A stretch of 64,000 nt of DNA, taken from positions 62,001 through 126,000 of the forward strand of contig NZ_SMBZ01000004.1 of the NCBI RefSeq assembly GCF_004342685.1, read 5' to 3'. Position 1 is the first letter of the stretch. Every line of letters begins with the position of its first letter. The stretch is from Sphingobacterium alimentarium. GTDB taxonomy: Bacteria > Bacteroidota > Bacteroidia > Sphingobacteriales > Sphingobacteriaceae. A model generated the notes under the pieces. It was not told the origin of the DNA, did not search any database, and worked only from the letters and a program-made list of their open reading frames with translations. The position numbers and the translations under genes were made by a program. Below, piece by piece: positions 11,133 to 62,446 of the stretch.

Positions 11133-11156
11133 TAAGTGACATTAAAGAGTTGTACA

Positions 11157-11510
11157 ATGAAAATTATAACAATTGAAGAAGAGGCATGGAAACAGTTGAA
11201 CAACCGTATCAATGCCATTGCCGATTACCTTAAAAGACAGGAGGAAAACAGCTACGACGACCTATGGTTGAATAACCATGAGGTATGCCAATATCTGCAT
11301 ATCAGCGAGAAAACCCTATGGCGAATGCGCACTAAGGGTGAGATAGCCTATTCAAAGTTTTATGGACAATATTTCTATACCATTGGGGCTATCAAGGATA
11401 TGCTAAATGCCAATGCTGTACAAACCAGTGACGAGTATGTAAAAGAGCTGATGGCAAGAGGCAAAAGCTATATCGAAAAAGGCAGAAAGTTGAATACTGG
11501 CAAGCAATAA
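11157..11510 (+). CDS. Xis2c-like helix-turn-helix protein
   Basis: The protein has 117 residues from ATG 11157; an upstream GTG at 11136 is less likely. The excisionase/HTH_17 core is LNNHEVCQYLHISEKTLWRMRTKGEIAYSKFYGQYFYTIGAIKDML. Its place after rteC and before a second HTH gene, a DUF3945 gene and topB matches xis2c of the CTnDOT excision operon. It is likely a DNA-bending recombination directionality or accessory factor. The gene at 11527 begins 16 bases downstream, so they form one operon. Confidence 0.82.
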   Translation: MKIITIEEEAWKQLNNRINAIADYLKRQEENSYDDLWLNNHEVCQYLHISEKTLWRMRTKGEIAYSKFYGQYFYTIGAIKDMLNANAVQTSDEYVKELMARGKSYIEKGRKLNTGKQ

Positions 11511-11526
11511 GACTATCATTAAACAT

Positions 11527-11826
11527 ATGAATATGAATATCGACAGAATTGAATTTATAGCGTGGATGGAGCGTATTTTAGAACGTCTTGATCTATTAAA
11601 AGAGCATATAGATGAAAGCAAGAGAAGCCTTAACAGTATAGACGGTGAAGAATTATTGGATAATCAGGATTTGCTACAGATGTTGAAAATAAGTAACCGC
11701 TCATTACAACGGTATCGCTCCATCGGTAAGCTACCTTACTATACAATTAGCGGCAAGCTCTATTACAAACTATCCGATGTACACCAGTTTATCAGAGAAA
11801 GTTTCAATCCTCCCTCAATTAAATAA
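11527..11826 (+). CDS. Xis2d-like helix-turn-helix protein
   Basis: A 99-residue small DNA-binding protein. After an N-terminal helix (residues 1-35) comes LLDNQDLLQMLKISNRSLQRYRSIGKLPYYTISGKLYYKLSDVHQFI, the HTH_17 excisionase-type fold. By position it corresponds to xis2d of CTnDOT, the factor needed with the integrase for excision. It is probably cotranscribed with the preceding HTH gene. A 10-bp-phased repeat array starts right at its stop codon, so a new promoter for the next operon begins there. Confidence 0.82.
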   Translation: MNMNIDRIEFIAWMERILERLDLLKEHIDESKRSLNSIDGEELLDNQDLLQMLKISNRSLQRYRSIGKLPYYTISGKLYYKLSDVHQFIRESFNPPSIK

Positions 11827-12835: not shown

Positions 12836-13383
12836 TGGAGGGTAAACCACTTCAATTAGAGGGTATGATTTCTAAAAAAGGAACAGAATTTTCGGCAACA
12901 GTACAGTTCAATGCAGACAAACGTTATGTAGAGTTCTTGTTTGACAGAGCGGGCAACAATCAGCAGTCGCAAAATAACCAACAAAAAAGTCAACAAAATC
13001 AGTCGCAGGAAGCACCAAGGACTTTTAGAGGTAAAGAATTGGATGATGAACACTACAATAAGTTCAAAGCAGGTGAGACTGTTTATGTAGATGGGCTGAT
13101 AGATAAAAAAGGTCAGAAATATCAAGGGTATATCACACTGAACAAAGAAACTGGTAAAACTGGTTTTTCCTTCCAAAACCCTAATAAGCTCAAAGAACAG
13201 GCAAAACCTACGGAAGCCCACAAAACTCAAACCGCTGTCAATTCGGAGGGTAAAACCAATGAAGCGACCAAAAAGATTAAAGAACCTCTACAGAAAGGAC
13301 AGCAAGCTCCGAAAAATAAAAAGCAACAGGAGAAACAAGAGAAACCCGAAACACCTGCCAAATCAAAAGGCAGAAAAATGTAA
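12835..13383 (+). CDS. DUF3945 ICE protein, 3' part (frameshifted)
   Basis: The C-terminal 182 residues of the gene that starts at 11924. The ATG at 12835 overlaps the upstream stop (TAATG), but it looks like an internal Met of the original protein: the same frame reads DETQKQTL just upstream. Two repeats of the DUF3945 unit are visible (LQLEGMISKKGTEFSATVQ and VYVDGLIDKKGQKYQGYIT), separated by a Gln/Asn-rich linker, with a basic Lys-rich tail. It may still be translated as a separate product by stop-start coupling. topB begins six bases after its stop. Confidence 0.75.
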   Translation: MEGKPLQLEGMISKKGTEFSATVQFNADKRYVEFLFDRAGNNQQSQNNQQKSQQNQSQEAPRTFRGKELDDEHYNKFKAGETVYVDGLIDKKGQKYQGYITLNKETGKTGFSFQNPNKLKEQAKPTEAHKTQTAVNSEGKTNEATKKIKEPLQKGQQAPKNKKQQEKQEKPETPAKSKGRKM

Positions 13384-45374: not shown

Positions 45375-47360
45375 TTAATGCTGCAAGTTCGGGTCGTTCT
45401 TGATCCGTTCTATTTCGCTTTCCACAATATGCAGGATGTCTGATTTTATCTGACGGTAATTGCTTTCAATTTCCTGTTTCATTTTATCTTCTCCCTGTTC
45501 ATTAACAAAGGATAGGATTTCCGGTATCTTCTGATATACTTTAGTTTCTGCGGCAACTTTTTCATTGTCCACTACAATTTCAGCGTGAAAGATTTTTTGC
45601 TCAATACGTTCATCAAAATTATCTGATACCGAACCGACAAACATACCTTGTGTAAGTGTTGAGATTTTAGAAGCCGGAATAAGGCTGTCTAACTGTGTGG
45701 AGATAGAGGTAGATTTATCATTCCTGTTAATCGTCATACTTTGGCGTTTCTGCAATACTTTTCCGAAACGTTCCGAAAGGCTCTTTGCCGTTTCGCCAAC
45801 TACCTGCCCGGAGAAAATATTACCAACGGTATTTTGAATTACCTTACTTTCCTTGTCGCCATAATCCCTTGTTAATTGCGAAAAATCCTGAAAGCCCAAA
45901 CATACAGCCACCTTATTACTTCTCGCTGTTGCGATAAGATTATCCAGTCCCCTAAAATAAATTGTGGGCAGCTCATCTATGATTACTGAACTCTTTAATT
46001 GCCCTTTTTTGTTGATGAGCTTAACAATACGGGAATTGTACAAACCCAATGCTGCGGAGTAGATATTTTGGCGGTCGGGATTATTACCCACGCACAAAAT
46101 TTTAGGCTCTTTTGGGTTATTGATGTCGAGCGTAAAGTCATCGCCAGTCATAACCCAATACAACTGTGGGCTAATCATTCTTGACAAAGGGATTTTTGCC
46201 GATGCAATCTGTCCCTGCAATTGGTCTTGTGCGCCACCTTGCCAGGCATCCATAAACGGAGAAAGATAGTTTTCCAAATCGGAATATGAGGTCAGAATGG
46301 TAAATACGTCCGAATACTTTTTATTCAGCAATTCAATGGCGTGCGGGAATGTACAATACTTACCATCCTCATAGATTTTCAGATACCAAATAATGGCAGC
46401 CAATAGGATAATTGGGCTTTCCACGAAAAAATCCCCTTGCTTCTGTATCCAGCTACGGTTGAGGTTCAGCATTATGGTGTAAGCCGCTTCGTAAGCGTCG
46501 GAAATGTCTGTCATAAAATCGGGATTGAGTGGATTGCACCTATGGCTCTTGCGTGGGTCATCGAAATTTATCACATGGAATTTTGGTTGAACTTTGTACT
46601 TATCCCGATGCTTCAATAAATGATTGTAGGCAATGGTGGAAAGGTCGTCAAATTTAAAATCATATATATACATACTAAAGCCTTTCTCAATCTGCTGCTT
46701 GATGTAGTTGTTTACGATGGCATAAGATTTACCGGAACCCGGAGTACCCAACACGATTGATGCCCTGAAAGGATTTACAATGTTTATCCAACCGTTGTTC
46801 CATTTGCCTTTGTAGTAAAATTTGGTGGGCAGGTTAACGGAATATTCATTTTCCATCAGCTTTGTTTCCTGTTGAAAGCTCTCGTTCTCGTTGTTGAAAA
46901 CATCGTCCATTAAGTTGGTACGAAGCAAGCGGCTCATCCATACGCCCACCATCAGCAAAGCAATATAACCTAACGAGATAGTAAGGATATACAGAAATGT
47001 GCCTATTACCGGAGATAGCTTTAACAACGGCGTGTTCAGAAAGAACAGCACAAAACCAACGCCCAAAGCCACGTAGATTTTAGCCCAGGTTATCTTCTCA
47101 TTCTTTACGCCTTTCGTTCCCAAACAACTCAAAGCAAGCAAAACCAAAGCGAACGCCTTGGTATAAAGGGTATGTGAAAACAAGCCCGCCGTCCGGTCGA
47201 AATTGCCTAACATCTTGTTGATTATTTCCAACGTCCAACCACGTTCTAAAAAGAACCCGTAGCAGAACCAATAAAGGTGCATCAGCACCAAAAGAATACT
47301 GACTGCCCGCATAAAAGCCATTATTTTGGCTAAACCTCTTAAATCGTCTTCTCCCTGCAT
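45375..47360 (-). CDS. TraG/MobC-like type IV coupling protein
   Basis: A 661-residue coupling ATPase of the CTnDOT MobC/TraG kind. Four N-terminal membrane segments (about residues 12-35, 65-82, 93-112 and 118-145) precede the ATPase with Walker A GTPGSGKS (205-212), a Walker B region SSVIIDELPTIYFRGLDNL and FQDFSQLTRDYGDKE. It links the relaxase-DNA complex to the conjugation pore at the inner membrane. Its promoter region has a phased repeat array (47413-47457). The neighbouring relaxase is now a fragment, so transfer by its own relaxase is unlikely. Confidence 0.9.
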   Translation of the reverse strand: MQGEDDLRGLAKIMAFMRAVSILLVLMHLYWFCYGFFLERGWTLEIINKMLGNFDRTAGLFSHTLYTKAFALVLLALSCLGTKGVKNEKITWAKIYVALGVGFVLFFLNTPLLKLSPVIGTFLYILTISLGYIALLMVGVWMSRLLRTNLMDDVFNNENESFQQETKLMENEYSVNLPTKFYYKGKWNNGWINIVNPFRASIVLGTPGSGKSYAIVNNYIKQQIEKGFSMYIYDFKFDDLSTIAYNHLLKHRDKYKVQPKFHVINFDDPRKSHRCNPLNPDFMTDISDAYEAAYTIMLNLNRSWIQKQGDFFVESPIILLAAIIWYLKIYEDGKYCTFPHAIELLNKKYSDVFTILTSYSDLENYLSPFMDAWQGGAQDQLQGQIASAKIPLSRMISPQLYWVMTGDDFTLDINNPKEPKILCVGNNPDRQNIYSAALGLYNSRIVKLINKKGQLKSSVIIDELPTIYFRGLDNLIATARSNKVAVCLGFQDFSQLTRDYGDKESKVIQNTVGNIFSGQVVGETAKSLSERFGKVLQKRQSMTINRNDKSTSISTQLDSLIPASKISTLTQGMFVGSVSDNFDERIEQKIFHAEIVVDNEKVAAETKVYQKIPEILSFVNEQGEDKMKQEIESNYRQIKSDILHIVESEIERIKNDPNLQH

Positions 47361-47412
47361 TCTTTTTTAGTTTTAATGTTCGGGCGTGAATTTAAAGGCT
47401 CTACACAGCGGC

Positions 47413-47457
47413 TATAAGAATGTGGCAGTCAATGGCGGTGCGTGGCAGTGTTTGGCG
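47413..47457 (-). promoter_or_regulatory. 10-bp-phased direct repeat array (copy 3)
   Basis: On the minus strand CGCC, TGCC, CGCC and TGCC begin every 10 bases (47457, 47447, 47437, 47427), each followed by N5-C, and TTATA begins at 47417, 40 bases after the first. The coupling-protein ATG is at 47360. It is the same design as at 11827 and 18145. Confidence 0.6.
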
Positions 47458-47557
47458 AAGTGATAAGAGTTGTAGCTTCTATGATCCTTTTGTATCGTAA
47501 CATTTATGAAGCATCCAAATAAAAAATACTTTTAGTTGCTCTTCTGTTTTCTGTCCG

Positions 47558-47764
47558 TCAGCAACATTTTTTGTCCTGCTGAATTGGTGGACAAGGAACA
47601 CTTCCGTAACTACAATAAACACAACAGTCTCCTTGTTTTGGTTTAAGAACTTGTTTGCATTTTTCACATTCGTAGAAATATTGGCAAGCGTCTGTCGGCA
47701 TTGTTTCTTCTTTCTTGTGTCCGCAGTTGGGGCAAGTAATTGTTGATTGCAATATGATTTCCAT
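47558..47764 (-). CDS. GDCCVxC-domain protein
   Basis: A 68-residue Cys-rich protein: TCPNCGHKKEETMP, CEKCKQVL and the name-giving GDCCVYCSYGSVPCPP, ending KKCC. The pattern suggests two zinc or mercury-binding knuckles. In Bacteroidota it accompanies merTP-like genes. It is the last gene of a small mer module; its role, perhaps Hg(II) or Zn binding, is unproven. Seven bases separate it from the MerTP gene. Confidence 0.85.
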   Translation of the reverse strand: MEIILQSTITCPNCGHKKEETMPTDACQYFYECEKCKQVLKPKQGDCCVYCSYGSVPCPPIQQDKKCC

Positions 47765-47770
47765 TTGGTT

Positions 47771-48364
47771 TTATTTTTTGTCGGTTACAGAATATCCTGT
47801 TGAGTTAATTGCTTTTTCGACCTCAGAAATATTCGTTTTTGAGTTGTCAAATTCCACGATTGCGTTTCCTTTTTCGTATGAGGCGTTTGAACTTATTATT
47901 CCTGTCAATTTATTTACTTCGTGATTTACGTGTTCGCCACAACTTGCACAAGTCATTCCGCTAATCGTAAATTCTACTTTTTGAATATTGGATTTGTCCA
48001 CCGCTATAATTTGCTTTTCTGTCTTTGGGTAGAAAATGCTTGAGTAGTATGGAAAGGCAAGCATTACGATTGCAAATGCTGTTACAATTCCTAAAAACAT
48101 TTTTGACTGAATGAATTTTGGTTTTTCTTCTGTCTCACAATTGCAATCTATCTGCTTTTTGGGTTTCAACTTTTGATACCAAGCAAAACCAAGAACCAAA
48201 ATTGTCAACCCGATAAAATAGGGTCGAAAAGGTTCAAGCCAAGAAAAAGTGGAAGCAAGACCGCTTGTTCCTGCAATAAGAGCCAATACTGGTGTGATGC
48301 AACAAAGAGAAGCTGCAATTGTAGTCAAAAGTCCTGCACCAATTAATTTTTTGTCAGTTTTCAT
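47771..48364 (-). CDS. merTP: MerTP fusion mercuric transport protein
   Basis: A 197-residue inner-membrane mercuric ion transporter. The MerT part has three membrane segments, the first with the CC pair (SLCCITPVLALIAGTSGLAS), plus a cytoplasmic CNCE. The C-terminal part is a MerP-like HMA domain with GMTCASCGEHV. Members bring Hg(II) inward, normally for MerA reduction, but no merA is present here. It overlaps the regulator stop by four bases. Confidence 0.88.
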   Translation of the reverse strand: MKTDKKLIGAGLLTTIAASLCCITPVLALIAGTSGLASTFSWLEPFRPYFIGLTILVLGFAWYQKLKPKKQIDCNCETEEKPKFIQSKMFLGIVTAFAIVMLAFPYYSSIFYPKTEKQIIAVDKSNIQKVEFTISGMTCASCGEHVNHEVNKLTGIISSNASYEKGNAIVEFDNSKTNISEVEKAINSTGYSVTDKK

Positions 48365-48735
48365 ATTGTTTCTAATATTTTGTTTTCGTCAAGTATTTTG
48401 AAAAATGGTTTCAGCATTTTTTCATACTCTTTAGTCAGTGAGTGAAAAATAGTTTGAGCTTCTCGTTCGGTTTCAATAAGTTTTCTGTCTTTGAGTTTCC
48501 GCAAGTGTTGTGAAACCGCTGAAATTGTCATACCAAGAATATCACTTATATCACAAACACAAAGTCGTTTTTCTTCATAAAGTAGAAAGAGTATTTTCAG
48601 TCTTACATTGTTTCCCGCTAATTCAAGTCCGTTCGATAAATAGTCAAAAGAACCGTTGAGTTCTGAAACTCGGTCTTTACAGCGGTTTATTTGTTTAATG
48701 TCTGCTTGTTGTCGTATGCAAGAATTATTGTCCAT
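48361..48735 (-). CDS. ArsR-type regulator of the mer module
   Basis: About 124 residues from ATG 48735 (MDNNSCIRQQADIK); the longer frame to 48819 runs through the promoter. The winged HTH has RLCVCDISDILGMTISAVSQHLRKLKDRKLIETEREAQTIFHSL, with CVC before the recognition helix as the candidate metal site and a further N-terminal CIRQQ. It probably represses merTP-GDCCVxC until metal binds. The palindrome at 48760-48779 is the candidate operator. Confidence 0.85.
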   Translation of the reverse strand: MDNNSCIRQQADIKQINRCKDRVSELNGSFDYLSNGLELAGNNVRLKILFLLYEEKRLCVCDISDILGMTISAVSQHLRKLKDRKLIETEREAQTIFHSLTKEYEKMLKPFFKILDENKILETI

Positions 48736-48759
48736 AGCACAAAGATAGTCACTTTGTTT

Positions 48760-48779
48760 ATTTAAGCAATTACTTAAAT
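48760..48779 (-). promoter_or_regulatory. mer-module operator palindrome
   Basis: ATTTAAG-N6-CTTAAAT, a perfect 7+7 inverted repeat 25 bases upstream of the regulator ATG (48735). The adjacent CACAAAGATAGTCACTTTG may be a second repeat. Confidence 0.5.
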
Positions 48780-48863
48780 ACAACTCAAATTCTTTCAGAA
48801 TTATAAAGTGACAGCTCAATAAATCTTTTTAAAAACAGATTTTTAATTCCAAAATCTGACCTC

Positions 48864-49481
48864 TTACAGTCTTCTTTTTTTTTTCTTCTTCATTTTGTTA
48901 GCAAAATCCTGTTCCTCGTAATCATCGCCCTGTGCTTCGGGTAACAAACCGCCAAATGTCTCAATCAAACCGTCTTCGTGTTTTTCAGTAGTATTCAGGA
49001 AGTCGAACAAATGATGAGGTTCTTCCGCAGGAAGATCTGCATCATTTGATGTGGATGTTTTTGGAAGTTGTACGACAGGTTCTTTAATCTCCGGTTTGAT
49101 ATTATTGTTCCAATAATCATTAAAGGTATTGGCAGAAAGTTCCTTTGCTAAGCGTGAACCGTTCCAAACCGCCTTTGAATTGTGGTCTATGAAAGTGATA
49201 CCATAAATACGACCTGTATCGTTCCGGCGGACCACTACATTAATGCCCTGTTCACTCAACTGCTTTTTAAAAGCCTGCTCATCATTTGTGGATTTCAGAG
49301 CAATAGAAATTGCAGCTTTTAGGGTCTGCTTACTTGGGTGGTCTTTTAAATCCTCTTTGCATTTTGCAAAATGCAGTTCCAAAGCCGGAAGCCCTGCATT
49401 TTTACCAAACAACGAAGCCTTGAACGGATGCCCGGCTGATATTCTTTGGGGTTTCTTGATATAATATAAAACAAAAAACCC
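48864..49481 (-). pseudogene. Relaxase (MobB-type) fragment, N terminus missing
   Basis: About 205 codons are open from 49481 (stop TGA at 49482-49484) to the stop at 48864. It reads KKPQRISAGHPFKASLFGKNAGLPAL and then INVVVRRNDTGRIYGITFIDHNSKAVWNGSRLAKELSAN, the C-terminal region of CTnDOT-like MobB relaxases, ending in a Lys/Arg-rich tail. The catalytic N-terminal domain is absent; the frame runs into a terminator hairpin. The element was truncated here by later rearrangement. It is the only remaining relaxase sequence of the ICE. Confidence 0.7.
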
Positions 49482-49508
49482 TCAAATTCATAGAATTTGA
49501 GGGTTTTT
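49471..49508. terminator. Perfect hairpin at the element junction
   Basis: AAAAACCCTCAAATTC / GAATTTGAGGGTTTTT, a near-perfect long stem with T-runs both ways. On the minus strand it follows the tRNA-Pro-like 3' end at 49529-49544, the arrangement expected for a tRNA terminator. Confidence 0.75.
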
Positions 49509-49528
49509 GACCTTACTTAGTGTAAGTG

Positions 49529-49544
49529 TGGTCGGGGTGGCAGG
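49529..49544 (-). other. tRNA-Pro 3'-end-like sequence (candidate att site)
   Basis: On the minus strand CCTGCCACCCCGACCA fits the T-stem 3' half, acceptor stem 3' strand (CACCCCG), discriminator A and CCA of a proline tRNA starting CGGGGTG. The T-loop just upstream is wrong (GGAATCTT in place of the TTCGAAT pattern), and no rest of a tRNA is present. It is the kind of 3' fragment left when an integrative element enters a tRNA gene. The rest of 49545-49790 has no supported gene. Confidence 0.4.
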
Positions 49545-49790
49545 AAGATTCCACACCTCCGCAAATATCTATCAATCAATTGGTTGAAAATACTTTTGAA
49601 GAACCGCTCACCTTTTTGCTCACATATAGTTTGCTCGGTTATTGGTATAAAGATAGGGATTTAAACCAACAAAAGGAAGCAATCGGCTACAAATTATACA
49701 TCAGCCATTCACCGTAAACAGCCAAAGCGAGAACAGCGCAAGACAAAGAGCGGTGGGGTTTCGCAAGCCACTAATGAGCGAGGGGATATA

Positions 49791-50810
49791 TTATTTTGTT
49801 GTTTGTAATTGTTTCCCAGCATACGTACCATACGCTTTTCCTGATACTTCTCCCAACTTATAATAGTCTGCTAATACTTTAAGAGTTAGGGTAATATCAT
49901 TTTCGTCTTCAATAAACAACTTTCTATCTTTTAACTTTAGTGTTTCTCCATACTTCTTACATATTCGTTGCATTTTTCGGATAGTTTTCGCATCAAGGCC
50001 TTGATAGTTGCCAATTTTTGTTAATCGAACAAGTTTTTTATGGATAGATGGGTTTCCTTCAATTTGTTTGGCGATGATTTCAAGCCCTTCAATCATATTT
50101 GTTGAAGCTAATGCTGTTACTACTTCTTTTGCCTGATTTTTATATTCTTCCTCTAAGCCAATAATTTGCTCGAATTGAGTCTTCTTTGCTATGTAAAAAG
50201 TGTCTTCGTAATATATACAGTCAATTTGTTTGTCTAAGTTTACTGTCTCTCCCTCAATCAATTCAAGCTTTTGGCTTTTAGAATTGAAAATTGTCCTTAT
50301 AGTCTTTTGGAGTTTACTTTTTTTATTACTATCATTCTCATCTATAGCCACCTTAGCAGCGAGTATCTTTCTGAAAGTGTAAACCCACTCGTTTTCATCA
50401 TTGTAGAAACCGACACAATAAGCCCACAATTCTTCATTCACAATAATTTCTTCTAAACTCTTTATTTTAGGCGGATTTGAACTTAATTGATTATTGACAA
50501 CATCGTAAAAAGACATTGCTTTATTAGTCATTTGATATGTGAATAATTGGGCTGTATCATCTGTAATTACATCGTATTCGTGCAATTCAGTTTTTCGTTT
50601 TACAAGACCATTTAATTGCTCTTGTGTTAGCGTGTACAGATGTTCCCTGATTTCATCGTTGACATCAATTTGGTAAACTTTGAACAAATATTTATCCATT
50701 ATTTTACTTGATGCTTTTACTTCAGGCTTTAGCACCCTTGTGATAAAGTAGAGGATTACATTATCCTCACTTATATTTTCTATTTTTTGTAAAAGTTCCT
50801 CGATAATCAT
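49791..50810 (-). CDS. kwaB: Kiwa defence protein KwaB (DUF4868)
   Basis: A 339-residue protein of the DUF4868 family. Family-type blocks are ELHEYDVITDDTAQLFTYQM near residue 80, YYEDTFYIAKKTQFEQIIGLEEEYKNQAKEVV near 205-240, and the C-terminal KLKDRKLFIEDENDITLTLKVLADYYK. In Kiwa, KwaB works with the membrane protein KwaA to stop phage. It overlaps the kwaA stop by four bases and is the last gene of the defence operon. The family call is confident; that this copy works is inferred. Confidence 0.8.
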   Translation of the reverse strand: MIIEELLQKIENISEDNVILYFITRVLKPEVKASSKIMDKYLFKVYQIDVNDEIREHLYTLTQEQLNGLVKRKTELHEYDVITDDTAQLFTYQMTNKAMSFYDVVNNQLSSNPPKIKSLEEIIVNEELWAYCVGFYNDENEWVYTFRKILAAKVAIDENDSNKKSKLQKTIRTIFNSKSQKLELIEGETVNLDKQIDCIYYEDTFYIAKKTQFEQIIGLEEEYKNQAKEVVTALASTNMIEGLEIIAKQIEGNPSIHKKLVRLTKIGNYQGLDAKTIRKMQRICKKYGETLKLKDRKLFIEDENDITLTLKVLADYYKLGEVSGKAYGTYAGKQLQTTK

Positions 50811-51439
50811 TTATTTGAGTTATTACTGGTTGCGAAATATAGTTTATGCCCGATTTCATAAAGTTTTACTTTACAATCATCTTGCAAAAATTTGTCTCGT
50901 GAAATAATCAATCCATTTCTATTTTTACCATTTTGAGCGATGTATTCAATTTCATATATACCGAATCTAAAACTCAAAAGCGGATTGATTAAAAGTAAAG
51001 ACGAATTAATGTAAATACGATAAATTATCAAAAGTAGAAAAATGACAGAAGCACATTCGTACCAACCATCAAAACTTTGAAATAAAAACGGGATTATGTA
51101 CGTAGCGATATATCCAATTGATTCACTGTTTTTATTCTTAACATCAGTAATAATTACTGGGTTTCCATTTTTTGCAACTTCTTCAATATTTGCTAATGTT
51201 TTCCAATAACCAAATGCCCCAATGACCGAGAAAGTGATAAGAAATGCTGATAAACCAAATTTTACCCCGAACATTTTCACGGATTCCCAAGAAACCCCTG
51301 CCCAGTTTAGATATTCACTATTCACAGATACCTGCCTTACTATCAGTAGCAAAAACAAAGGCAAATAGGATGACACGAAAAGCGAAAATTGAGCTATTCC
51401 GTGCAAATTATTAATTCCTTTGTTCTGTCGTTTAGTCAT
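50807..51439 (-). CDS. kwaA: Kiwa defence protein KwaA
   Basis: A 210-residue membrane protein with four hydrophobic segments (about residues 16-35, 52-75, 108-128 and 128-150) and the family block IYRIYINSSLLLINPLLSFRFGIYEIEYI. The C terminus is cytoplasmic-like and beta-rich. In Kiwa, KwaA is the membrane component partnered with KwaB. Its ATG overlaps the stop of the PD-(D/E)XK-like gene by one base, so it is translationally tied to the restriction-type genes. Confidence 0.78.
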   Translation of the reverse strand: MTKRQNKGINNLHGIAQFSLFVSSYLPLFLLLIVRQVSVNSEYLNWAGVSWESVKMFGVKFGLSAFLITFSVIGAFGYWKTLANIEEVAKNGNPVIITDVKNKNSESIGYIATYIIPFLFQSFDGWYECASVIFLLLIIYRIYINSSLLLINPLLSFRFGIYEIEYIAQNGKNRNGLIISRDKFLQDDCKVKLYEIGHKLYFATSNNSNK

Positions 51440-52017
51440 TACATTCTCAATATTTCTGCTAATTCTTCGAAAGAAGAAATCCCGTTGATGTCTGCTGTAT
51501 CAATCCAGTCAATCCCTCCTGCTGGCAAATAGTTTATAATCCCCGTTTTGAAATTGTATTGTTCATTAATTTTTTTCATATCAATAAACCAATCCATAGG
51601 AAGCTTTTTCAATCGAACAATTTCTTGAAAGTCATTTGATAGTTTATTAGACGACATTCCCTTTTGAATAAGAAGTAACAAACCTAAATCAATGGTTTTT
51701 GCAACCTGTAAATAGCCCACCAACTGCGAATAATCTTTCAAACTCAACTGGTTTAAATACTTTGCTTCAATCAATATCAATCGTACTTTTTTATCAGGAT
51801 TGATTATGGCAAATACAATATCTACTTTCAGTTTAGGAATGTAAATTCCTTCTTCTTTTATGGTAATCCCCGATTGTTTCTCTAAATCATAAATAATAAA
51901 ATCTAACGTTTTATTACAGGAATAAAAAACGCTATAGTTATCTCCAAGATATGTATTTAGATATTGGCTGAATTTCTTTGAAAATTCTTCATAATAACTT
52001 ATTTCATTCTGTATCAC
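51439..52017 (-). CDS. PD-(D/E)XK-like nuclease-fold protein
   Basis: A 192-residue protein of no named family that I recognise. Residues about 64-90 (KLKVDIVFAIINPDKKVRLILIEAKYLNQ) give D66-x17-E84-A-K86, the acidic/ExK core of PD-(D/E)XK nucleases, followed by a helix and QLVGYLQVAK. This looks like the cleavage subunit of a restriction-type system. It overlaps the LAGLIDADG-like gene by one base and kwaA by one base. Fold assignment is by motif only. Confidence 0.6.
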   Translation of the reverse strand: MIQNEISYYEEFSKKFSQYLNTYLGDNYSVFYSCNKTLDFIIYDLEKQSGITIKEEGIYIPKLKVDIVFAIINPDKKVRLILIEAKYLNQLSLKDYSQLVGYLQVAKTIDLGLLLLIQKGMSSNKLSNDFQEIVRLKKLPMDWFIDMKKINEQYNFKTGIINYLPAGGIDWIDTADINGISSFEELAEILRM

Positions 52018-53339
52018 TATTTCAAATTTACGGTTAGGTTATCTACTTTAATTTTTGTTTTTATGAGTTGTTGATTCAAGCTGTTGCTTACAGATGAACA
52101 AATAAAAGCTCTGTCATTCACTGGGTTAATGACTAATAATGGACTATCAAATGTGTTTCCAATGGTTTTCAATGTTAATATTGCAGTTGTATGCGTATTG
52201 ATAATACCGTCCATTGAACCAATATGTCTTTTCCCGTTTAAAGTTTCTGCAAATAGATAGGCAATGCCTTGGTCAATACCCGTGAAACTTTTAAAATCTT
52301 CGTGTTCTATAAGTCTTGAAACTTTGGCTTTATGCGTTGAAATTTCCAATTCGGGAAAATATTCGGCTTTAATTTCTTCCAACTTTTTCAAAAGTTCTTT
52401 TTTCGTTCCCTTTGATAATCTTGGGAAAAAGTTGATATATCTATTTTTGTTTTTTACTAATTTTTCAATTTCCTCAACAGGTGCGTGACGACAACCCAAA
52501 ACCGCACAAAAATGATGATAGTGAAAGAACAGTTTGTTTCTTACTTCAATTGGTAGCTCATCAGAATTTTGGTCTGTATGAACGGAAACAGGACTTGGCG
52601 TCCTTAGTTTTCTTAAAATACAAGGGATTTGCTCTTCTTTCTTTTGATGCTTCTCTATTTTGGTTACGTCAATTGATTTGGCTTGTAACGCAAAAGAATA
52701 TTGGGTAAGAAAGGAACGAACCAAAAAACGAATTTTAAATCCTTTTTTCCAACCTTTATAATCAGGGTCTGAAGCTGAATGTTGGTTTGGGTGATTGTAC
52801 AAAATTTGATCAGTTGTCGAACCTAAATCTGTAAGCCAAGCACAAAGCTGAACAACAAAATTAAAATTCCGAGTGCTTCCCGGAATCTCAACAGAAACTA
52901 CTGGCGCATCATCTGTAAATCTTCTGTGTGATAATGTCAAACTTGCTCTTGTATCAAAAATTCCAGATAAAAAACTTGCAGTATTTATGCCTGTCAATTT
53001 TAATTTAGCGGTTGTCAAATCAGCAGAAGACAGCAGAAATCCTCCAATCGGCAACCCCAAATATTGTAAGTCATTTTTCAGACTTGAAATATCGGAATTA
53101 TCCAATGGCATAATCAACCATTTACCGTTCCCAATTTCGTAAGTTACATTAAAACTATATGAGGTGTTAAAATATTGACATATCTTCGTAAGAATATCAG
53201 TTGCGATAATATTCATCCGTTTCGGCTCCATTCCCCATTTTTTGAAGGGAAGGTCAATTACAAATGTGTTTTCATCTATTTTCCCACTCCCAACTAATAA
53301 CCCAAGTATATATGCTTTAATATGATTAATATTTTCCAT
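52017..53339 (-). CDS. LAGLIDADG-like protein with degenerate catalytic positions
   Basis: A 440-residue protein. Two segments resemble LAGLIDADG helices about 110 residues apart: AYILGLLVGSGKID (residues 9-22) and SFLSGIFDTRASLTLS (122-137). At the place of the catalytic acid the first has Ser and the second Arg. The N-terminal ~240 residues fit a single-chain LAGLIDADG fold. The rest includes HHFCAVLGCRHAP (possible metal knuckle) and an unknown C-terminal domain. It follows the C5 methyltransferase (14-base overlap) and precedes the nuclease-like gene, so it may be a sequence-recognition subunit. Confidence 0.5.
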   Translation of the reverse strand: MENINHIKAYILGLLVGSGKIDENTFVIDLPFKKWGMEPKRMNIIATDILTKICQYFNTSYSFNVTYEIGNGKWLIMPLDNSDISSLKNDLQYLGLPIGGFLLSSADLTTAKLKLTGINTASFLSGIFDTRASLTLSHRRFTDDAPVVSVEIPGSTRNFNFVVQLCAWLTDLGSTTDQILYNHPNQHSASDPDYKGWKKGFKIRFLVRSFLTQYSFALQAKSIDVTKIEKHQKKEEQIPCILRKLRTPSPVSVHTDQNSDELPIEVRNKLFFHYHHFCAVLGCRHAPVEEIEKLVKNKNRYINFFPRLSKGTKKELLKKLEEIKAEYFPELEISTHKAKVSRLIEHEDFKSFTGIDQGIAYLFAETLNGKRHIGSMDGIINTHTTAILTLKTIGNTFDSPLLVINPVNDRAFICSSVSNSLNQQLIKTKIKVDNLTVNLK

Positions 53340-54624
53340 TCTCTAAATGCTTTTCCAATGCCTTGGCAATAACCCAAGCAAAAACTGGCGGAACTGCATT
53401 ACCAATTACTTTGTAAGCATTCGCAATGGTCTTGTAAGGGAATTTAAAATTATCAGGAAATGATTGAATCCTTGCAATCTCTCTAATAGTAAACCTCCTG
53501 TTTTCAAAGGGATGCGTAATACCACAATTTTCAGGTTGAGCCGATGCTGTGATAGTACCATTAATTTCACCCAATGCAAATCTACGATAGAAATTAGGTG
53601 CATGATATTTTTTAGGGTTATCCCAAATTCTTCTAAAACGTTCCGACATGTCTTCGGGATTCATACTTTTCCAAGATTTACCTTGTGAAATCGTTTTACT
53701 AATTTGATTCAAGGGTGTTCTTTTTTTGAATTTGGTTAATGCCTCTTTCCCATCTTCACATGGTCCTATTTTATCAACCATATATTGCCCCCCAGGGGAA
53801 TATTTCCAGTAATCATTAGCTTGTGGTGCACTTTTAGGTATATCACATAAAGCAGAGCCAAGATATAAATCATAAGGATTATATACTTCGTTCGGTAGAT
53901 TATATTCCATAACGATTTGCTCCAGCAAGTTAAAATCAAAATGACCTAAATCTAAATCTTTCCGTAACCCAATAATGATTAAGCGTTGTCGATTGGAAGG
54001 AACCCCATAGTTGCTTGTTTTTAATAGTTTATAGCAGGTTTTAAAACCTAATTTTTCCGTTCTTTTTACAATTTCGTCAGGTATGCTTGTCCCGTCTGCC
54101 ATTTTTGAGGATAAAATACCTTTAACATTTTCAAAAACAAAGCCTATGGGTTTGTTTTCCCTTTGTAACCCTACTTTTAGTAGTCGTTCACATTCCTCAA
54201 AGAGATTTCCTCTTTCGTCATTAATACCTTTTCTCAATCCAGCATTTGAAAATGGTTGACAAGGAAATCCTGCGAGTAAAAAATCAAAATCAGGAATATC
54301 TTCAAAGTTAACATCTTTTATATCTTCACGATGCAACTTGTGGTCATTGAAAAAAGAAGTATTCGCATTATAAACATATTCTGCAGCAGGGTCGATATCA
54401 TTAGAATATTCAATTCTGAATTTGGTTTTATCGAAATGTCTGTCTCGAAAATCAAAGTTTCCCGAAAAGCCTAAATCTAATCCGCCACAACCACTAAAAA
54501 GAGATACAATTTTTAAAGCTTCCTTTCGATTTACGGAAGTTTTACGTTTATAGGTGTTAAAGTCAATAAACATTTGTGGTTCTTCGACAATTGAAATTGT
54601 TTCTAATTCATTTTGAGTGTACAT
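53326..54624 (-). CDS. DNA cytosine-5 methyltransferase
   Basis: A 432-residue C5 methyltransferase. Motif I is LKIVSLFSGCGGLDLGFSG, motif IV LAGFPCQPFSNAG (catalytic Cys near 122), motif VI FVFENVKGI, motif VIII VPSNRQRLIIIG, and motifs IX-X end with IARIQSFPDNF and KVIGNAVPPVFAWVIA. It is full length, with a moderate target-recognition region between VIII and IX. It likely protects host DNA from the restriction part encoded next. The recognition sequence cannot be read from the gene. It starts six bases after the XRE regulator stop. Confidence 0.93.
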   Translation of the reverse strand: MYTQNELETISIVEEPQMFIDFNTYKRKTSVNRKEALKIVSLFSGCGGLDLGFSGNFDFRDRHFDKTKFRIEYSNDIDPAAEYVYNANTSFFNDHKLHREDIKDVNFEDIPDFDFLLAGFPCQPFSNAGLRKGINDERGNLFEECERLLKVGLQRENKPIGFVFENVKGILSSKMADGTSIPDEIVKRTEKLGFKTCYKLLKTSNYGVPSNRQRLIIIGLRKDLDLGHFDFNLLEQIVMEYNLPNEVYNPYDLYLGSALCDIPKSAPQANDYWKYSPGGQYMVDKIGPCEDGKEALTKFKKRTPLNQISKTISQGKSWKSMNPEDMSERFRRIWDNPKKYHAPNFYRRFALGEINGTITASAQPENCGITHPFENRRFTIREIARIQSFPDNFKFPYKTIANAYKVIGNAVPPVFAWVIAKALEKHLENGKY

Positions 54625-54629
54625 AATGT

Positions 54630-54956
54630 TTAAAGCTTTAAAGTTATTTGTTTTGTGTTTTTCTGCCTGATGTATTTTACTTTTTCTTCTGCAAGGGTTA
54701 GTACATTGTCATTACATCTGGATTGATAAATTGTATTTGCAATTTTCTCACTTATCAATTCAGACTTTAACATTTCTAAATCAAGATTAAATGCTTCTGC
54801 AAGATTTGGCAAAAAGACTTCATCCAATTCCTTCTTTCCTGTCTCGATTTTGCTCAAAGCACCAGAATCAATACCAAGTTTTGCGCCTAATTGGGTAAGC
54901 GTCCATCCATTTTGAGTTCTTAGTTTTCTGATATACTCTCCGAAATTTGCTTCCAT
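54630..54956 (-). CDS. XRE-family regulator (controller protein-like)
   Basis: A 108-residue HTH_3 protein: IRKLRTQNGWTLTQLGAKLGIDSGALSKIETGKKELDEVFLPNLAEAFNLDLEML is a canonical XRE domain, followed by a short helical C terminus. As the first gene of a methyltransferase/restriction-like/Kiwa operon it resembles C-proteins that time restriction expression. It likely binds its own promoter in 54957-55029; no clear palindrome was picked out there. Confidence 0.85.
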   Translation of the reverse strand: MEANFGEYIRKLRTQNGWTLTQLGAKLGIDSGALSKIETGKKELDEVFLPNLAEAFNLDLEMLKSELISEKIANTIYQSRCNDNVLTLAEEKVKYIRQKNTKQITLKL

Positions 54957-55029
54957 TGTCTTGAAATTTTCATCTTGACGATTTCAACAAAAATATAGAT
55001 TAGGTTGATGATACCCAAATAATTTAGCA

Positions 55030-55668
55030 TTATTTTTTATCTCCTGTTCTTTTCAGCCGATTCACTTCTTCTTTTGCCCGTTCTGCCTGTTCCGTGGACT
55101 GCCTTGCACTTTCTTCGGCTTTTCTAATGGCAATCAACCGTTCTTCCTCCTGCTTCACCCAAATTCTAAGTTGTTTGGGATTGTTGTAGTAGATGGAATC
55201 TATATCCAAAGAAACTTGCGGATAAAGTAATCTAACCATGCGAATTTTGATGTCACTGTCGCACAGAGCGGAGTTTGACCGCCAAAGCTGAATGCTGGCG
55301 AAAAGAGAAAGTACCGATACAAGCACAAGGACTGCTCCCGTAATGACATACGGTCGTTGTCGCCCTGTTAGGCGATGCTCCACATTGACCTTTATTCGCT
55401 GTGGCATTTCGCTTATCGCTTTCTTCTGTTGCTCCAAAGCGGTGACAAGGCTATCGGTTGCCTTAGCGTGCTTTAGGATGGACGCTTTCAGTCCGACAAG
55501 CGTTTCGTCCTGTATATTGCTCTCCAACTTCTTGACTATATCTGCCAATTCTGCTGAATAGTCTTTGGTTTCGGATTGCTGTTTTTCGAGTTGTTGCACA
55601 CGTTTATCCATTAGTACCACTATCTCCTGTTGGTCTTTAACAGCGGTCTGTAATTCCTGTTCGTTCAT
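55030..55668 (-). CDS. Coiled-coil membrane protein of the mobilization region
   Basis: A 212-residue protein with an N-terminal coiled coil (residues 1-90), a single membrane helix (ITGAVLVLVSVLSLFASIQLW, about 109-129), then IYYNNPKQLRIWVKQEEERL and a charged C-terminal helix. It lies just after the relaxase gene and is transcribed with it. Small membrane coiled-coil proteins follow relaxases in many Bacteroidota mobilizable elements; the role is unknown. Confidence 0.7.
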   Translation of the reverse strand: MNEQELQTAVKDQQEIVVLMDKRVQQLEKQQSETKDYSAELADIVKKLESNIQDETLVGLKASILKHAKATDSLVTALEQQKKAISEMPQRIKVNVEHRLTGRQRPYVITGAVLVLVSVLSLFASIQLWRSNSALCDSDIKIRMVRLLYPQVSLDIDSIYYNNPKQLRIWVKQEEERLIAIRKAEESARQSTEQAERAKEEVNRLKRTGDKK

Positions 55669-55680
55669 TTTTTTAGTGTT

Positions 55681-56628
55681 TTATCTGCTGATTCCTCTTG
55701 ATTTTTCTTCCTCCGGTTTCTTTTTCTTCCTGCGCCACGTTGGGTCGGGTTCGGGTTCTATCGAAGCGGGCATATCCAGTAGGTCACCGAGCAAACCCAA
55801 TCCCGTTTCGTATTCCTCTGACCGATGTTCCTGTTGTCCGAGTACCTCCCTTATCTGGTCGGCAAGTGTAGTGGACTGTGATATTTCCGTTCCCCGATTG
55901 TGGCTTAACTGTTTCTTCATACTGGCGAAACTAAATTTGCGGTCGATAGCCGAACCTTTGAACTTTACACCATCCTTTTCAAATGAAATGCCCTGCACTT
56001 CATTTGTTCCGCTACGGTACTTATAATGGATGCCGATGTCCTGCCTTGCAAGCATCGTTTCCACCTGTTTCCATGTGGTGGCTTTCGCCATGATGGATTT
56101 AAGGGCATCGTGTATCGCATAGCGCAACCTGTCATTTCCCCGAAGTGCCTGCCTATTCACCTTTGCCTTACCCTTGCCGAGATGGTAGCCGTAACGCTCG
56201 GTCGTCTCCCTGCATACCTTTCGGCTTTTGTGCCAATGGTTGAAATTGCCTATCGTCTTTCCATCGTTGTCCACTCGGTTATATACAATATGTACGTGTG
56301 GGTGTTTCTTATCGGTATGCAGTACGGTAAGGTACTGGGTATTCTTGATGCCCATCTTTTCCATGTATTCCCTTGCATGCTCCACCATCTTCTCTATGCT
56401 AAGTTTATCCCTGTCCTCGTTGCTCCAACTTAGCACGGTATGCCCTACGGCATTGCCAAGCTGTGGGCGCATCTTGCGCTGTGCGTTGAGGTCGGCAATA
56501 ATCGCCTTGATGTCATAATCCCTAACGCCTGCCGAGTCCAAAACAAAGGACTTTTCACGTTCCAACAGGTAACGGACGCAACCGCCGAAACTTTTGCCCG
56601 TAATAACCTTAGCTATCATCCTTACCAA
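55681..56628 (-). CDS. MOBP-type relaxase/mobilization nuclease
   Basis: A 315-residue relaxase. MIAKVITGKSFGGCVRYLLE at the start (an ATG three codons in is also possible), VGHTVLSWSNEDRD, then the metal-binding three-His motif in KKHPHVHIVYNRVDNDGK (His near 109, 111 and 113), fit the VirD2-like relaxase fold. It nicks at oriT and carries the strand during transfer. Its start overlaps the mobC end by 20 bases. A candidate oriT lies upstream of mobC at 57041-57128. Confidence 0.9.
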   Translation of the reverse strand: MVRMIAKVITGKSFGGCVRYLLEREKSFVLDSAGVRDYDIKAIIADLNAQRKMRPQLGNAVGHTVLSWSNEDRDKLSIEKMVEHAREYMEKMGIKNTQYLTVLHTDKKHPHVHIVYNRVDNDGKTIGNFNHWHKSRKVCRETTERYGYHLGKGKAKVNRQALRGNDRLRYAIHDALKSIMAKATTWKQVETMLARQDIGIHYKYRSGTNEVQGISFEKDGVKFKGSAIDRKFSFASMKKQLSHNRGTEISQSTTLADQIREVLGQQEHRSEEYETGLGLLGDLLDMPASIEPEPDPTWRRKKKKPEEEKSRGISR

Positions 56629-56989
56629 TCCTTTCCATTAACTGCTCCACTTCGTTCAGTAAACTGCGCAGATTCGCCATGATTGACACAAGCCCTCCCT
56701 TGTGTGCAAGCTTGGTCAACTGGTTGAGATTGTTTGCCATGCCGGACAATGTGCGCAGGTAGCCCGTTTCCTCTTTTGAAAGTCTTGGTCTTATTTCGGC
56801 AGTCTTTGCGGACTGCCGAAACCAATCGCTTATCCGCATGCCCGCATTTCTCGCTTTCCCTGCAATCGCCAAACGTTCGGTAGGGGTTATCCGTACCACG
56901 AGCGAAACGCTCCGTGTGATGGCTTTTTTCGGACGGCCACGCTTGCGTGTTATTCCGTCCGTCTCCTTTTCTTTCGCCAATTTTTTCAT
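56609..56989 (-). CDS. mobC: MobC-type relaxosome protein
   Basis: A 126-residue accessory protein. A basic N terminus (KRGRPKKAITRSVSLVVRITPTERLAIAGKARNAGM) resembles a ribbon-helix-helix DNA-binding start, and the C-terminal MANNLNQLTKLAHKGG is the usual bacterial MobC signature. It helps the relaxase open oriT DNA. Its stop lies inside the relaxase gene. Base composition here is noticeably richer in G+C than the defence operon. Confidence 0.88.
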   Translation of the reverse strand: MKKLAKEKETDGITRKRGRPKKAITRSVSLVVRITPTERLAIAGKARNAGMRISDWFRQSAKTAEIRPRLSKEETGYLRTLSGMANNLNQLTKLAHKGGLVSIMANLRSLLNEVEQLMERIGKDDS

Positions 56990-57040
56990 TGGCGAACCTC
57001 CCCAAGTTTACGGACTGCGACCATCGGGAGCATCCGCCGT

Positions 57041-57128
57041 TCCCCACACTGCGGAGCGTGGGGGAAAGGTTTTTTGCATTGCAAAAAAATAAACTTGCTC
57101 CCTACAGGGCGACAAAGGTTTACCTTTG
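57041..57128. other. Candidate oriT region (hairpin cluster)
   Basis: Three inverted repeats are packed upstream of mobC: TCCCCACAC/GCGTGGGGGA (57041-57064), TTTTTTGCA-T-TGCAAAAAA (57070-57088) and CAAAGGT-TT-ACCTTTG (57113-57128). The position between mobC and the HTH gene is usual for oriT in small mobilizable elements. No nick site can be named. Confidence 0.45.
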
Positions 57129-57196
57129 GAGTACTGACTGCGGGTAGCGTGTCTTTCCGGTAGTCTTTCCGAAAATCTTTCCGCTCTTTACAGGTG

Positions 57197-57475
57197 CTAT
57201 TCCCCATCTTCACCTCCCTCCATCAGCTTTTGGATGTCCTCATATTTATAGTACATCAGTCCACCGATTTTCTTGAACGGCAATGTGCCGTTCACACGTA
57301 GGTTCTGCAATGTGCCTGCCGATATGCCGAGCAACTTGCGCACCTCGTAGCTTTTGAACCATGCCCTCTGTTCCTGTCCGTGTTTTCTTGGGTGGGGGCT
57401 GTGCTTTCTGATTTCCTCGAACAGTTCCTTTTTGAATTTTTCGAGGTCATCCCTCGTGATGAGCTCTACGTTCAT
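57197..57475 (-). CDS. Excisionase-like helix-turn-helix protein (second element)
   Basis: A 92-residue protein: RAWFKSYEVRKLLGISAGTLQNLRVNGTLPFKKIGGLMYYKYEDIQKLM is an HTH_17-type core, with an N-terminal helical, basic part. It is probably a regulator or excision factor of the mobilizable element with the relaxase and the integrase at 62965. It has the same fold as those at 11157 and 11527 but different sequence. Confidence 0.8.
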   Translation of the reverse strand: MNVELITRDDLEKFKKELFEEIRKHSPHPRKHGQEQRAWFKSYEVRKLLGISAGTLQNLRVNGTLPFKKIGGLMYYKYEDIQKLMEGGEDGE

Positions 57476-57514
57476 CTTTCCTCCTTTGTGTTATCGTTAA
57501 AAAATCTGTTACCA

Positions 57515-61138: not shown

Positions 61139-62446
61139 TTAGTCTGTTTTTACTGTTTGTGTGAAGTCAAGTCGATGATCAGGGTTTTTCACGTATCGTT
61201 GCATGATATGACGGTGGATTTTTTCCGGCTGTCGCTTCCCATTAATATAAAGAGCCTCATTAGTGATACGGAGTCGGAAATTTTTTCTGTCATGAATCAA
61301 TTCCATTTTTATGAGTTCTTCTACGATTTTTTCACCCTGCACACGAGGTTCATCCTGTGTCCATTCAATATCCTGATATTTGGATTTAGCATAGGTGCTT
61401 ATGGGATTGACGGCTATAGCAATTCCCACAACCATCGTGCAGCTCAAACAGATTGCTAAAATCAATCGCTCAACTAAGTTTAATGTGGGTCTTTCTTTTT
61501 TTAACAACCTTTTAACCCTATTGATCAAAGTTCCTCTATCTCCTTTTAGACCAACAGCTAAATGAGGAGTGGACATGCTATATTCCTCACATTGTACAAG
61601 TGCGTTTACGTACAATGATTTGCTTCCGGTATACGCAACAGCAATATCATCACAACAATTCTCACGCTCGGCTCTGATAAGTGACGATAGCCAAAGTACG
61701 GCCGGATTGAAAAAGAATAAGATCTCAATCGCATTTTGCACTAAATTTACGATAAAATCATTTCTCCGCACATGAGCCAATTCGTGCGCGAGAACCGCTT
61801 CCACTTGCTCCACGCTTAATGAAGTAACAAGACCTATTGGAAATAGAACCAACGGCTTAAAATGTCCGATAATGAGCGGAGTCTTGGCCAATATAGATTC
61901 ATGGAATGCTACCCTCTGTGTTACGCCTATTCCTTTACAAATGTGATCTACAAGACGTTGCCATCGCATATCGGTAGCAATAAGGCCTGTGTTCTTCAGA
62001 CGGAAAACACCATAAAGATTCACACACATTCTGACACTCTTGATACACACAACCATAAACCATAGCAATACGATAAAACTGTAATAATCACGAAATGAGC
62101 CAAATAGATAGGACAACTGTTCATAAACGTCATCTAATGTCAACCCGTTTTTCGTGTGGGTGAGAACTTCTTCTGGTGAACGGACCGTTGTCTCCATGGA
62201 CGTAAAATCGGTCCTTTGAAGGAGTATTGTGCCTGCAAAGGTTGCGATAATTGACAGGAGAAAAGCTGAAAGAATCCCCACCAATAGCATGTATCTCAAC
62301 GCAGAGCTCAGGTGCTTTCCCAAAACGACGACAAGACCACCCAATACCGCCAAAATTACTCCCTGCCATAAGGAATGTAATATGGTGTTCCCCAATGCAC
62401 TTATAAGTGCATCTGTAAAATCGTAATTATTCAACAAATTGTTCAT
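61139..62446 (-). CDS. M56/BlaR1-like membrane metallopeptidase
   Basis: A 435-residue protein with four membrane segments (about residues 17-45, 52-76, 122-145 and 236-260). The zinc site is HELAH (221-225) with AERENCCDD supplying the Glu near 260. It belongs to family M56, like BlaR1/MecR1, which sense outside signals and release BlaI-type repressors by cleavage. It lacks a recognisable penicillin-binding sensor domain at the C terminus, so the signal is unknown. It starts 13 bases downstream of the BlaI-like gene's stop. Confidence 0.88.
   Translation of the reverse strand: MNNLLNNYDFTDALISALGNTILHSLWQGVILAVLGGLVVVLGKHLSSALRYMLLVGILSAFLLSIIATFAGTILLQRTDFTSMETTVRSPEEVLTHTKNGLTLDDVYEQLSYLFGSFRDYYSFIVLLWFMVVCIKSVRMCVNLYGVFRLKNTGLIATDMRWQRLVDHICKGIGVTQRVAFHESILAKTPLIIGHFKPLVLFPIGLVTSLSVEQVEAVLAHELAHVRRNDFIVNLVQNAIEILFFFNPAVLWLSSLIRAERENCCDDIAVAYTGSKSLYVNALVQCEEYSMSTPHLAVGLKGDRGTLINRVKRLLKKERPTLNLVERLILAICLSCTMVVGIAIAVNPISTYAKSKYQDIEWTQDEPRVQGEKIVEELIKMELIHDRKNFRLRITNEALYINGKRQPEKIHRHIMQRYVKNPDHRLDFTQTVKTD

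Follow-up and report, generated by a model that had tools for sequence, protein, structure and literature searches.

A six-gene cassette of Sphingobacterium alimentarium that joins a methyltransferase gene set to a Kiwa pair, a probable mobile two-layer defence

Introduction

Kiwa is described as a two-component defence system consisting of KwaA and KwaB. According to PMC12904381, KwaA forms tetramers in the inner membrane, while KwaB dimers bind injected DNA and halt replication and late transcription without cutting. The pathway is called RecBCD-dependent in PMC11514479, which cites a 2023 preprint. Here we analyze a stretch of 64,000 nucleotides from Sphingobacterium alimentarium (contig NZ_SMBZ01000004.1, positions 62,001 to 126,000 of the forward strand; hereafter the window), in which a Kiwa pair closes a run of six genes that also encodes a regulator of the XRE family and a C5 cytosine DNA methyltransferase. 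On balance we favor the reading that this run is a mobile cassette for two-layer defence, in which a restriction-modification (RM) system and Kiwa would be co-regulated and co-transferred.

Defence gene pairs have been reported in type I RM operons, DarTG2 in enteropathogenic Escherichia coli (EPEC) and TgvAB in Vibrio pathogenicity island 2 (VPI-2), in PMC12255303 and PMC11411939; embedded pairs are discussed there as 'guilt by embedding', and this kind of arrangement is therefore already known. Kiwa is not named in the text of PMC12255303. In S. thermophilus, Kiwa and R/M systems occur in one CRISPR-linked defence island (PMC11514479), which is co-location and not an operon. Kiwa in RM operons is not reported among the literature matches listed, whose coverage leaves the main Kiwa papers outside, and no claim to a first report is made.

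Gene content and junctions of the cassette

The cassette lies on the minus strand of the window (54956-49791). As the original prediction held, the list of open reading frames contains six genes here, in the order XRE > M > G3 > G4 > KwaA > KwaB, with KwaA and KwaB in one run with a modification gene:

54957..54995, minus strand: leader and 5' edge of the cassette; DNA homology with two further copies (L002 and L011) starts at 54995 in both
54630..54956, minus strand: XRE (HTH_3) regulator, 108 aa, first gene; PF01381, E 2.4e-11
53326..54624, minus strand: M, C5 cytosine DNA methyltransferase, 432 aa; PF00145, E 1e-67; TIGR00675 above cut-off
52017..53339, minus strand: G3, 440 aa, without a family above cut-off; N-terminal half probably a duplicated LAGLIDADG fold
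51439..52017, minus strand: G4, 192 aa, GTG start, candidate PD-(D/E)XK-like nuclease; PDDEXK_3, E 0.0042, below cut-off
50807..51439, minus strand: KwaA, Kiwa membrane protein, 210 aa; PADLOC KwaA, E 1.2e-72
49791..50810, minus strand: KwaB (DUF4868), 339 aa, its stop codon forming the 3' edge of the cassette; PADLOC KwaB, E 2.1e-120; PF16162

The overlaps of one to four bases that had been proposed throughout the run are found at its last three junctions (1 base at G3/G4; 1 base at G4/KwaA, in TAATG; 4 bases at KwaA/KwaB, in ATGA), but not at the first two, where a 5-base gap separates the end of XRE (54630) from the start of M (54624), and M and G3 overlap by 14 bases. To call Kiwa fused into the operon is too strong, as the genes overlap and the proteins are separate. 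The leader 5' of the XRE start codon is conserved and carries TCAAGA repeats and a TTTTTG stretch at the end of a TAnnTTTG-like element, which resembles the Bacteroidota -7 consensus.

The family assignments of both Kiwa proteins hold, with the PADLOC matches listed above and KwaB exceeding the PF16162 cut-off (61.9 bits against 26.3), and KwaA has three hydrophobic segments. Both proteins score below the NCBIfam equivalog cut-offs (KwaA 90 bits against 100 for NF041622, KwaB 33.8 bits against 200 for NF041623), and the pair therefore belongs to a diverged Kiwa branch. The closest PDB sequence match of M is M.HaeIII (E 4.1e-37). The label "restriction-type genes" is weaker for G3 and G4, which match no family above cut-off. 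The XRE protein best matches HTH_VI in PADLOC (E 2.8e-12), and the PADLOC Control_protein profile only at E 0.0034. It is small and encoded upstream of the RM genes, a position that fits an RM controller (C) protein, and is a possible controller of the operon.

Recurrence, borders and selection

A KwaB protein search of genome contigs returns seven loci, one of which, in Chryseobacterium sp. R2A-55 (L002), carries all six genes in this order, with proteins 84-94% identical. DNA homology is unbroken from window position 54995, 39 bases ahead of the XRE start, to 49791, where the KwaB stop codon ends (84.4% over 5205 bp), and a comparison of window positions 47001-57500 with L002 finds nothing beyond the cassette at E 1e-5. 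A third copy (L011, genome G349) also begins at 54995 and is cut by the contig end inside G4. The XRE protein is 84% identical in L002 and L011, and the tight overlaps are kept in both complete copies (window and L002). L002 belongs to another host and has other surroundings, yet the homology extends exactly from the leader to the final stop codon, so that the six genes travel as one cassette. The same junctions in L002 likewise make the linkage more than chance, and the two further copies rule out chance adjacency in a single strain.

All six genes are under purifying selection, with ratios of nonsynonymous to synonymous substitution (dN/dS) against L002 of 0.074 (XRE), 0.023 (M), 0.042 (G3), 0.035 (G4), 0.072 (KwaA) and 0.014 (KwaB), although three of the dS values are >1 and two of these near saturation. 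The range of 0.014-0.074 across the six genes indicates that selection maintains the Kiwa half as well as the restriction half.

Kiwa beside RM genes in Bacteroidota

Kiwa loci in Bacteroidota were collected with PADLOC KwaB (13/395 genomes of the phylum) and PF16162 (6/197 genomes of one class, 2 new), giving 15 in total and 14 after excluding the window, all of which were examined. HamA of the two-gene system Hachiman served as the control (17/390 genomes of the same phylum, 19 places); 17 Hachiman loci were examined, two weak ones below the cut-off being excluded. Genes on one strand with gaps of <=250 bases are counted as a run. The survey is small, and the 197-genome sample is without a Hachiman counterpart.

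Modification-type RM genes lie beside Kiwa at 8/14 loci, and 6/14 have the two together in a same-strand run. Type I or type I-like partners are found in three of these runs: an N6 methyltransferase and an S-like gene, overlapping KwaA (L026); hsdM - Kiwa - hsdR (L035); and an hsdS overlapped by KwaA, with hsdR further down and other genes between (L036). The KwaB score of L036 is weak (E 3.1e-4), and its partner matches a KwaA profile from 14 other loci at 84 bits. Eco57I-type methyltransferases are the partners in L034 and in L027, where a possible KwaA start codon overlaps the methyltransferase stop. In L066, an N6 methyltransferase lies upstream of the gene for a KwaB-like protein (4557-5438), which is followed after 16 bases by an hsdS-like gene; this locus has no KwaA match and was kept among the 14, with counts also computed without it. 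Outside runs, L028 has Vsr and a C5 methyltransferase 589 bases upstream of Kiwa, and L030 a divergent type I hsdM-S-R 239 bases away. No modification-type RM is seen beside Kiwa in L029, L031, L032, L033 and the contig-limited L025 and L065. A 763-aa Piwi-domain protein (9285-11576) follows the Kiwa pair of L031.

Hachiman stands beside modification-type RM genes at 1/17 loci (L075), and two more Hachiman loci are near type IV genes (McrBC in L079, Mrr-like in L083). In L075 (1811-11240), the hsdS and hsdR genes of a type I RM operon flank Hachiman on its two sides.

One-sided Fisher tests, made with no tree correction, give p 0.0026 for RM adjacency (8/14 against 1/17) and p 0.021 for same-strand runs (6/14 against 1/17; 5/14 and p 0.050 before the KwaA of L027 was recognized). 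Without L025, L065 and L066 the values are 7/11 against 1/17 (p 0.0019) and, for runs, 5/11 (p 0.022); counting type IV genes for Hachiman gives 7/11 against 3/17 (p 0.019), and leaving out L036 as well gives 6/10 (p 0.004) and, for runs, 4/10 (p 0.047). A neighborhood survey for the six-gene order, as suggested with the original prediction, thus finds this order again in L002 and Kiwa beside RM more often than Hachiman. A plain defence-island effect as the cause of the Kiwa-RM linkage is weakened by the Hachiman control.

Kiwa on further contigs, on plasmids and in E. coli

Among the other loci from the KwaB contig search, RM genes are present in 3/6. L003 has an Eco57I-type methyltransferase and a type II BsuBI/PstI endonuclease, followed 190 bases on by KwaA-KwaB on the same strand. 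L004 has a PADLOC type II restriction endonuclease (REase) 24 bases after KwaB, convergent with an N4/N6 methyltransferase, and on its upstream side a Mutator transposase and then the contig end. L005 has type III-like Mod and Res ~220 bases downstream of Kiwa. No RM genes are seen in L006 (where the contig starts at Kiwa), L007 and L008.

For plasmids, 14 annotated records were read, the unannotated record L086 and the matches H5-H7, H17, H19-H31 and H35-H41 being uncounted. RM or BREX adjoins Kiwa in 4/14: a type I operon that ends in Kiwa (L063), a haloarchaeal BREX-5 cluster with the Kiwa pair nested on the opposite strand (L064, 9246-10825), a convergent C5 methyltransferase with DUF4928 (L084), and a type I RM system one gene away (L092). 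RM is absent from the six Hachiman plasmid records read, of 9 matches. No KwaB relatives are confirmed in viral contigs (query A1) or phages (query L034 KwaB). In the E. coli Nissle plasmid pMUT2 (L121, 1777-3569), Kiwa is again tightly coupled to a foreign gene, here through an overlap between kwaA and the gene for replication initiation.

A distant search with Salmonella Kiwa finds 38/5426 E. coli genomes, and five were examined. Three of these have hsdM-hsdS-hsdR-KwaA-KwaB on one strand, with 51-52 bases from hsdR to KwaA; in one, of type O55:H7, KwaA-KwaB accompanies vsr-dcm and an oppositely oriented type II REase (PADLOC E 4.7e-115); and the fifth is a lambdoid prophage, discussed below. 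A search with the linked dcm-REase-KwaA-KwaB genes matches 15 genomes, 13 of them over >=80% of the query (one with IS1), one with the Kiwa part alone and one with the RM part alone, so that 13/14 genomes with O55:H7-type kwaAB keep the dcm-REase neighbor. The linked hsdR-KwaA-KwaB is found in 20 of 318 matched genomes, among the matches listed, and 40 further listed rows have hsdR without the whole kwaAB; 17 of the best 20 of the 38 genomes from the Salmonella query are among the RM-linked genomes. These counts, which come from related strains and not from independent events, indicate that RM often occurs without Kiwa, and that these Kiwa types are mostly beside RM.

G3 and G4

G3 has nothing above cut-off in Pfam (best match RICH, E 0.014), PADLOC, NCBIfam or PHROGs, so that its placement in a known REase family was rejected, and a comparison with PDB sequences gives nothing relevant. 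Relatives of G3 are found in 2/400 genomes of the order (the window's own and G349) and 1/395 of the phylum (its own), with none on plasmids at E 1e-3 and none confirmed in viral contigs; G4 has no relatives on plasmids or viral contigs, and M none in viral contigs. G4 matches PDDEXK_3 (E 0.0042) and GxxExxY (E 0.015), both below cut-off, and its residues D66 and E84-x-K86 are conserved in L002.

Residues 1-215 of G3 quite likely form a duplicated LAGLIDADG fold. With a motif profile built from 20 Bacteroidota LAGLIDADG_3 stretches, the two best matches in G3 are at residues 10 and 123, 113 residues apart; the pair ranks first among 149 proteins with a score reached by 0/2000 shuffles, and by its single best motif G3 ranks second. 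A two-sequence model of residues 1-225 (pLDDT 49, pTM 0.48) has, at low confidence, the order helix-strand-strand-helix-strand-strand twice. Foldseek against the PDB with this model returns LAGLIDADG homing endonucleases in all of rows 1-44 (best E 6.8e-3), mostly one protein, I-DmoI, which VIA-align places on the model over 83 residues (3.5 A, Z 4.4). Several results count against the fold: the LAGLIDADG rows in VIA (Z 4.1-4.5) are tied with or below unrelated rows of up to 5.6; hhalign of G3 against the LAGLIDADG profile is not significant (rank 3 of 157, E 0.058); a comparison with the viral structure library mixes LAGLIDADG with unrelated rows, and no row falls under E 0.001; and the best 50 rows for the full-length model (pLDDT 34.6) include no LAGLIDADG protein. 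An hhalign comparison of G3 with itself finds no internal repeat.

At the catalytic-acid positions of the two motifs G3 has S18 and R131, invariant in 3/3 sequences, an assignment that depends on correct alignment of the motifs. With the acids replaced in this way, G3 should not cut. We infer a two-subunit enzyme in which G3 would read the site and G4 would cut.

Mobilization genes and other surroundings

The neighbors of the cassette are mobilization genes: a MobC coupling protein (45375-47360), a relaxase-like gene (55681-56628) and an MbpA-like gene (56609-56989). The family Bacteroid_MobB is split around the cassette, 48864-49412 matching its C-terminal part only (positions 246-419) and 55681-56628 its N-terminal part only (1-167), the latter with better TraI/MobP relaxase matches. 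The cassette may have entered the mobilization region by recombination.

A metal-resistance set adjoins the cassette (47558-48819: MerTP fusion, ArsR-type regulator, GDCCVxC protein), and a BlaR1-like sensor gene (61139-62446; NF000326, E 1e-23, below cut-off) lies near the mobilization genes. In L002, one transposase-like stretch, presumably IS91-type as judged by eye, is present on both flanks of the whole cassette (150-530 and 9378-9875).

Proposed mechanism and alternative explanations

One promoter and one XRE regulator probably drive M-G3-G4 and, through the overlapping stop and start codons, the Kiwa pair. M-G3-G4 would be an unusual type II RM system, in which M marks self DNA, while G3, probably a catalytically dead LAGLIDADG-fold DNA-recognition subunit, and G4, a PD-(D/E)XK-like nuclease subunit, would cut unmarked DNA in the cytoplasm. 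KwaA would sense infection at the inner membrane, and KwaB would bind the incoming DNA and block its replication, covering phages that escape cutting. From the published accounts of Kiwa (PMC12904381 and PMC11514479) we propose a layer that cuts unmethylated DNA and a DNA-holding layer at the entry site, both turned on together. The RM partner varies between loci, so a general benefit is favored over a dedicated protein contact; this benefit could be co-regulation, co-transfer or synergy through cut ends. That Kiwa recurs beside type I, type II and type III RM systems speaks for a general advantage in combining cutting with DNA binding at the membrane, and suggests that two defence layers are often carried, and perhaps switched on, together.

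Several observations weigh against this reading. Kiwa is seen without RM at 6/14 Bacteroidota loci (two of them contig-limited), in 10/14 annotated plasmid records, with small plasmids among the carriers, and at 1/5 of the examined E. coli loci, the lambdoid prophage. The Kiwa neighbors received more family look-ups than the Hachiman neighbors (20 proteins), alongside one phmmer screen that covered both, and the distance limits were fixed after the loci had been seen. An XRE gene in first place need not govern the whole run. The restriction half is predicted, with G3 lacking a family and the G4 match lying under the Pfam cut-off. In the prophage (L122), Kiwa (6001-7584) lies between nin-type and replication genes, and a Gam-family host-nuclease inhibitor gene (12617-12913) is further on.

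That RM operons are simply landing sites, where Kiwa gains read-through expression and co-transfer without any interplay, has about an even chance of being right, and is partly compatible with the two-layer reading, so that the likelihoods of the two are not exclusive. The original prediction is partly supported, by the overlapping gene run, its recurrence and the survey; its suggestion that Kiwa backs up restriction goes further than these results, with partners that range over RM types I, II and III and BREX and with Kiwa loci that have no RM. Hachiman too has an example within a type I RM operon, Kiwa has different RM partners at different loci, and for DarTG2 and TgvAB an embedding in type I RM operons is reported (PMC12255303 and PMC11411939). 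Kiwa nevertheless adjoins RM genes at a higher rate than Hachiman does in this phylum, and 13/14 O55:H7-type E. coli kwaAB keep their dcm-REase neighbor, though the strains are related.

A bolder reading, which we hold only tentatively, is that Kiwa is by origin an RM accessory that persists largely beside cutters sensitive to modification status, with real synergy, for instance by overcoming the inhibitors with which phages prevent the degradation of fragments, and that its partner here would be a new two-subunit restriction enzyme (dead LAGLIDADG reader and PD-(D/E)XK cutter). Somewhat less likely is a specific synergy at DNA ends, in which restriction fragments feed a RecBCD/AddAB-type nuclease, phages inhibit the nuclease, and Kiwa counters this inhibition, securing restriction. 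The description of Kiwa as RecBCD-dependent (PMC11514479) is consistent with such a role, and cutting partners of different types fit a break-dependent partner and not one enzyme; however, KwaB binds DNA and blocks replication and late transcription without cutting (PMC12904381), and Kiwa occurs without RM too.

Under a further explanation, the RM half acts as an addiction module that kills cells losing the cassette and stabilizes Kiwa as cargo. Post-segregational killing would be less likely with RM systems of types I and III, yet these carry Kiwa too, and we regard this explanation as improbable, although the cassette sits among mobilization genes and such killing by plasmid-borne type II RM is described in PMC11324026. 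Least probable of all is that M-G3-G4 is not a restriction system but a methyltransferase with two DNA-binding helpers serving Kiwa, for example as a membrane DNA-recognition arm: neither G3 nor G4 reaches the cut-off of any restriction-enzyme family and G3 is without the LAGLIDADG catalytic acids, if it is LAGLIDADG at all, but G4 retains the D..ExK residues, and Kiwa is elsewhere linked to recognized RM enzymes, so that no special recognition arm is needed.

Comparison with known systems

If RM is a frequent partner of Kiwa, including in E. coli loci of the O55:H7 type, testing Kiwa by itself may overlook part of its natural context, and synergy between RM and Kiwa can be put to a direct test. 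For the restriction half, a review of type II enzymes (PMC4081073) lists PD-(D/E)XK, HNH, GIY-YIG, PLD and half-pipe as the catalytic groups and does not name LAGLIDADG; a LAGLIDADG-fold specificity subunit, if true, would be a fold outside these groups. No title among the literature matches listed concerns a LAGLIDADG restriction enzyme.

The cassette resembles type II RM systems with a C5 methyltransferase in that M has as neighbors a candidate PD-(D/E)XK-like gene and, in the controller position, an XRE gene, and differs from them in the lack of a recognized REase family, the additional 440-aa G3 and the attached Kiwa pair. G3 would share with LAGLIDADG homing endonucleases such as I-DmoI two motif-like helices and, in a low-confidence model, a repeated topology; it differs in being encoded by an RM-like operon, outside any intron or intein, and would lack the catalytic acids. 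The arrangement is like that of DarTG2 and TgvAB (the two papers cited above) in that an RM operon contains, internally or terminally, a further pair of defence genes, but those pairs lie in type I systems, whereas the present RM genes have a type II composition and carry their guest pair at the 3' end. With described Kiwa systems the locus shares the KwaA and KwaB families, their order and overlap, and the combination of a membrane protein with a DUF4868 protein; it differs in that KwaA and KwaB come last among six linked genes and belong to a diverged branch.

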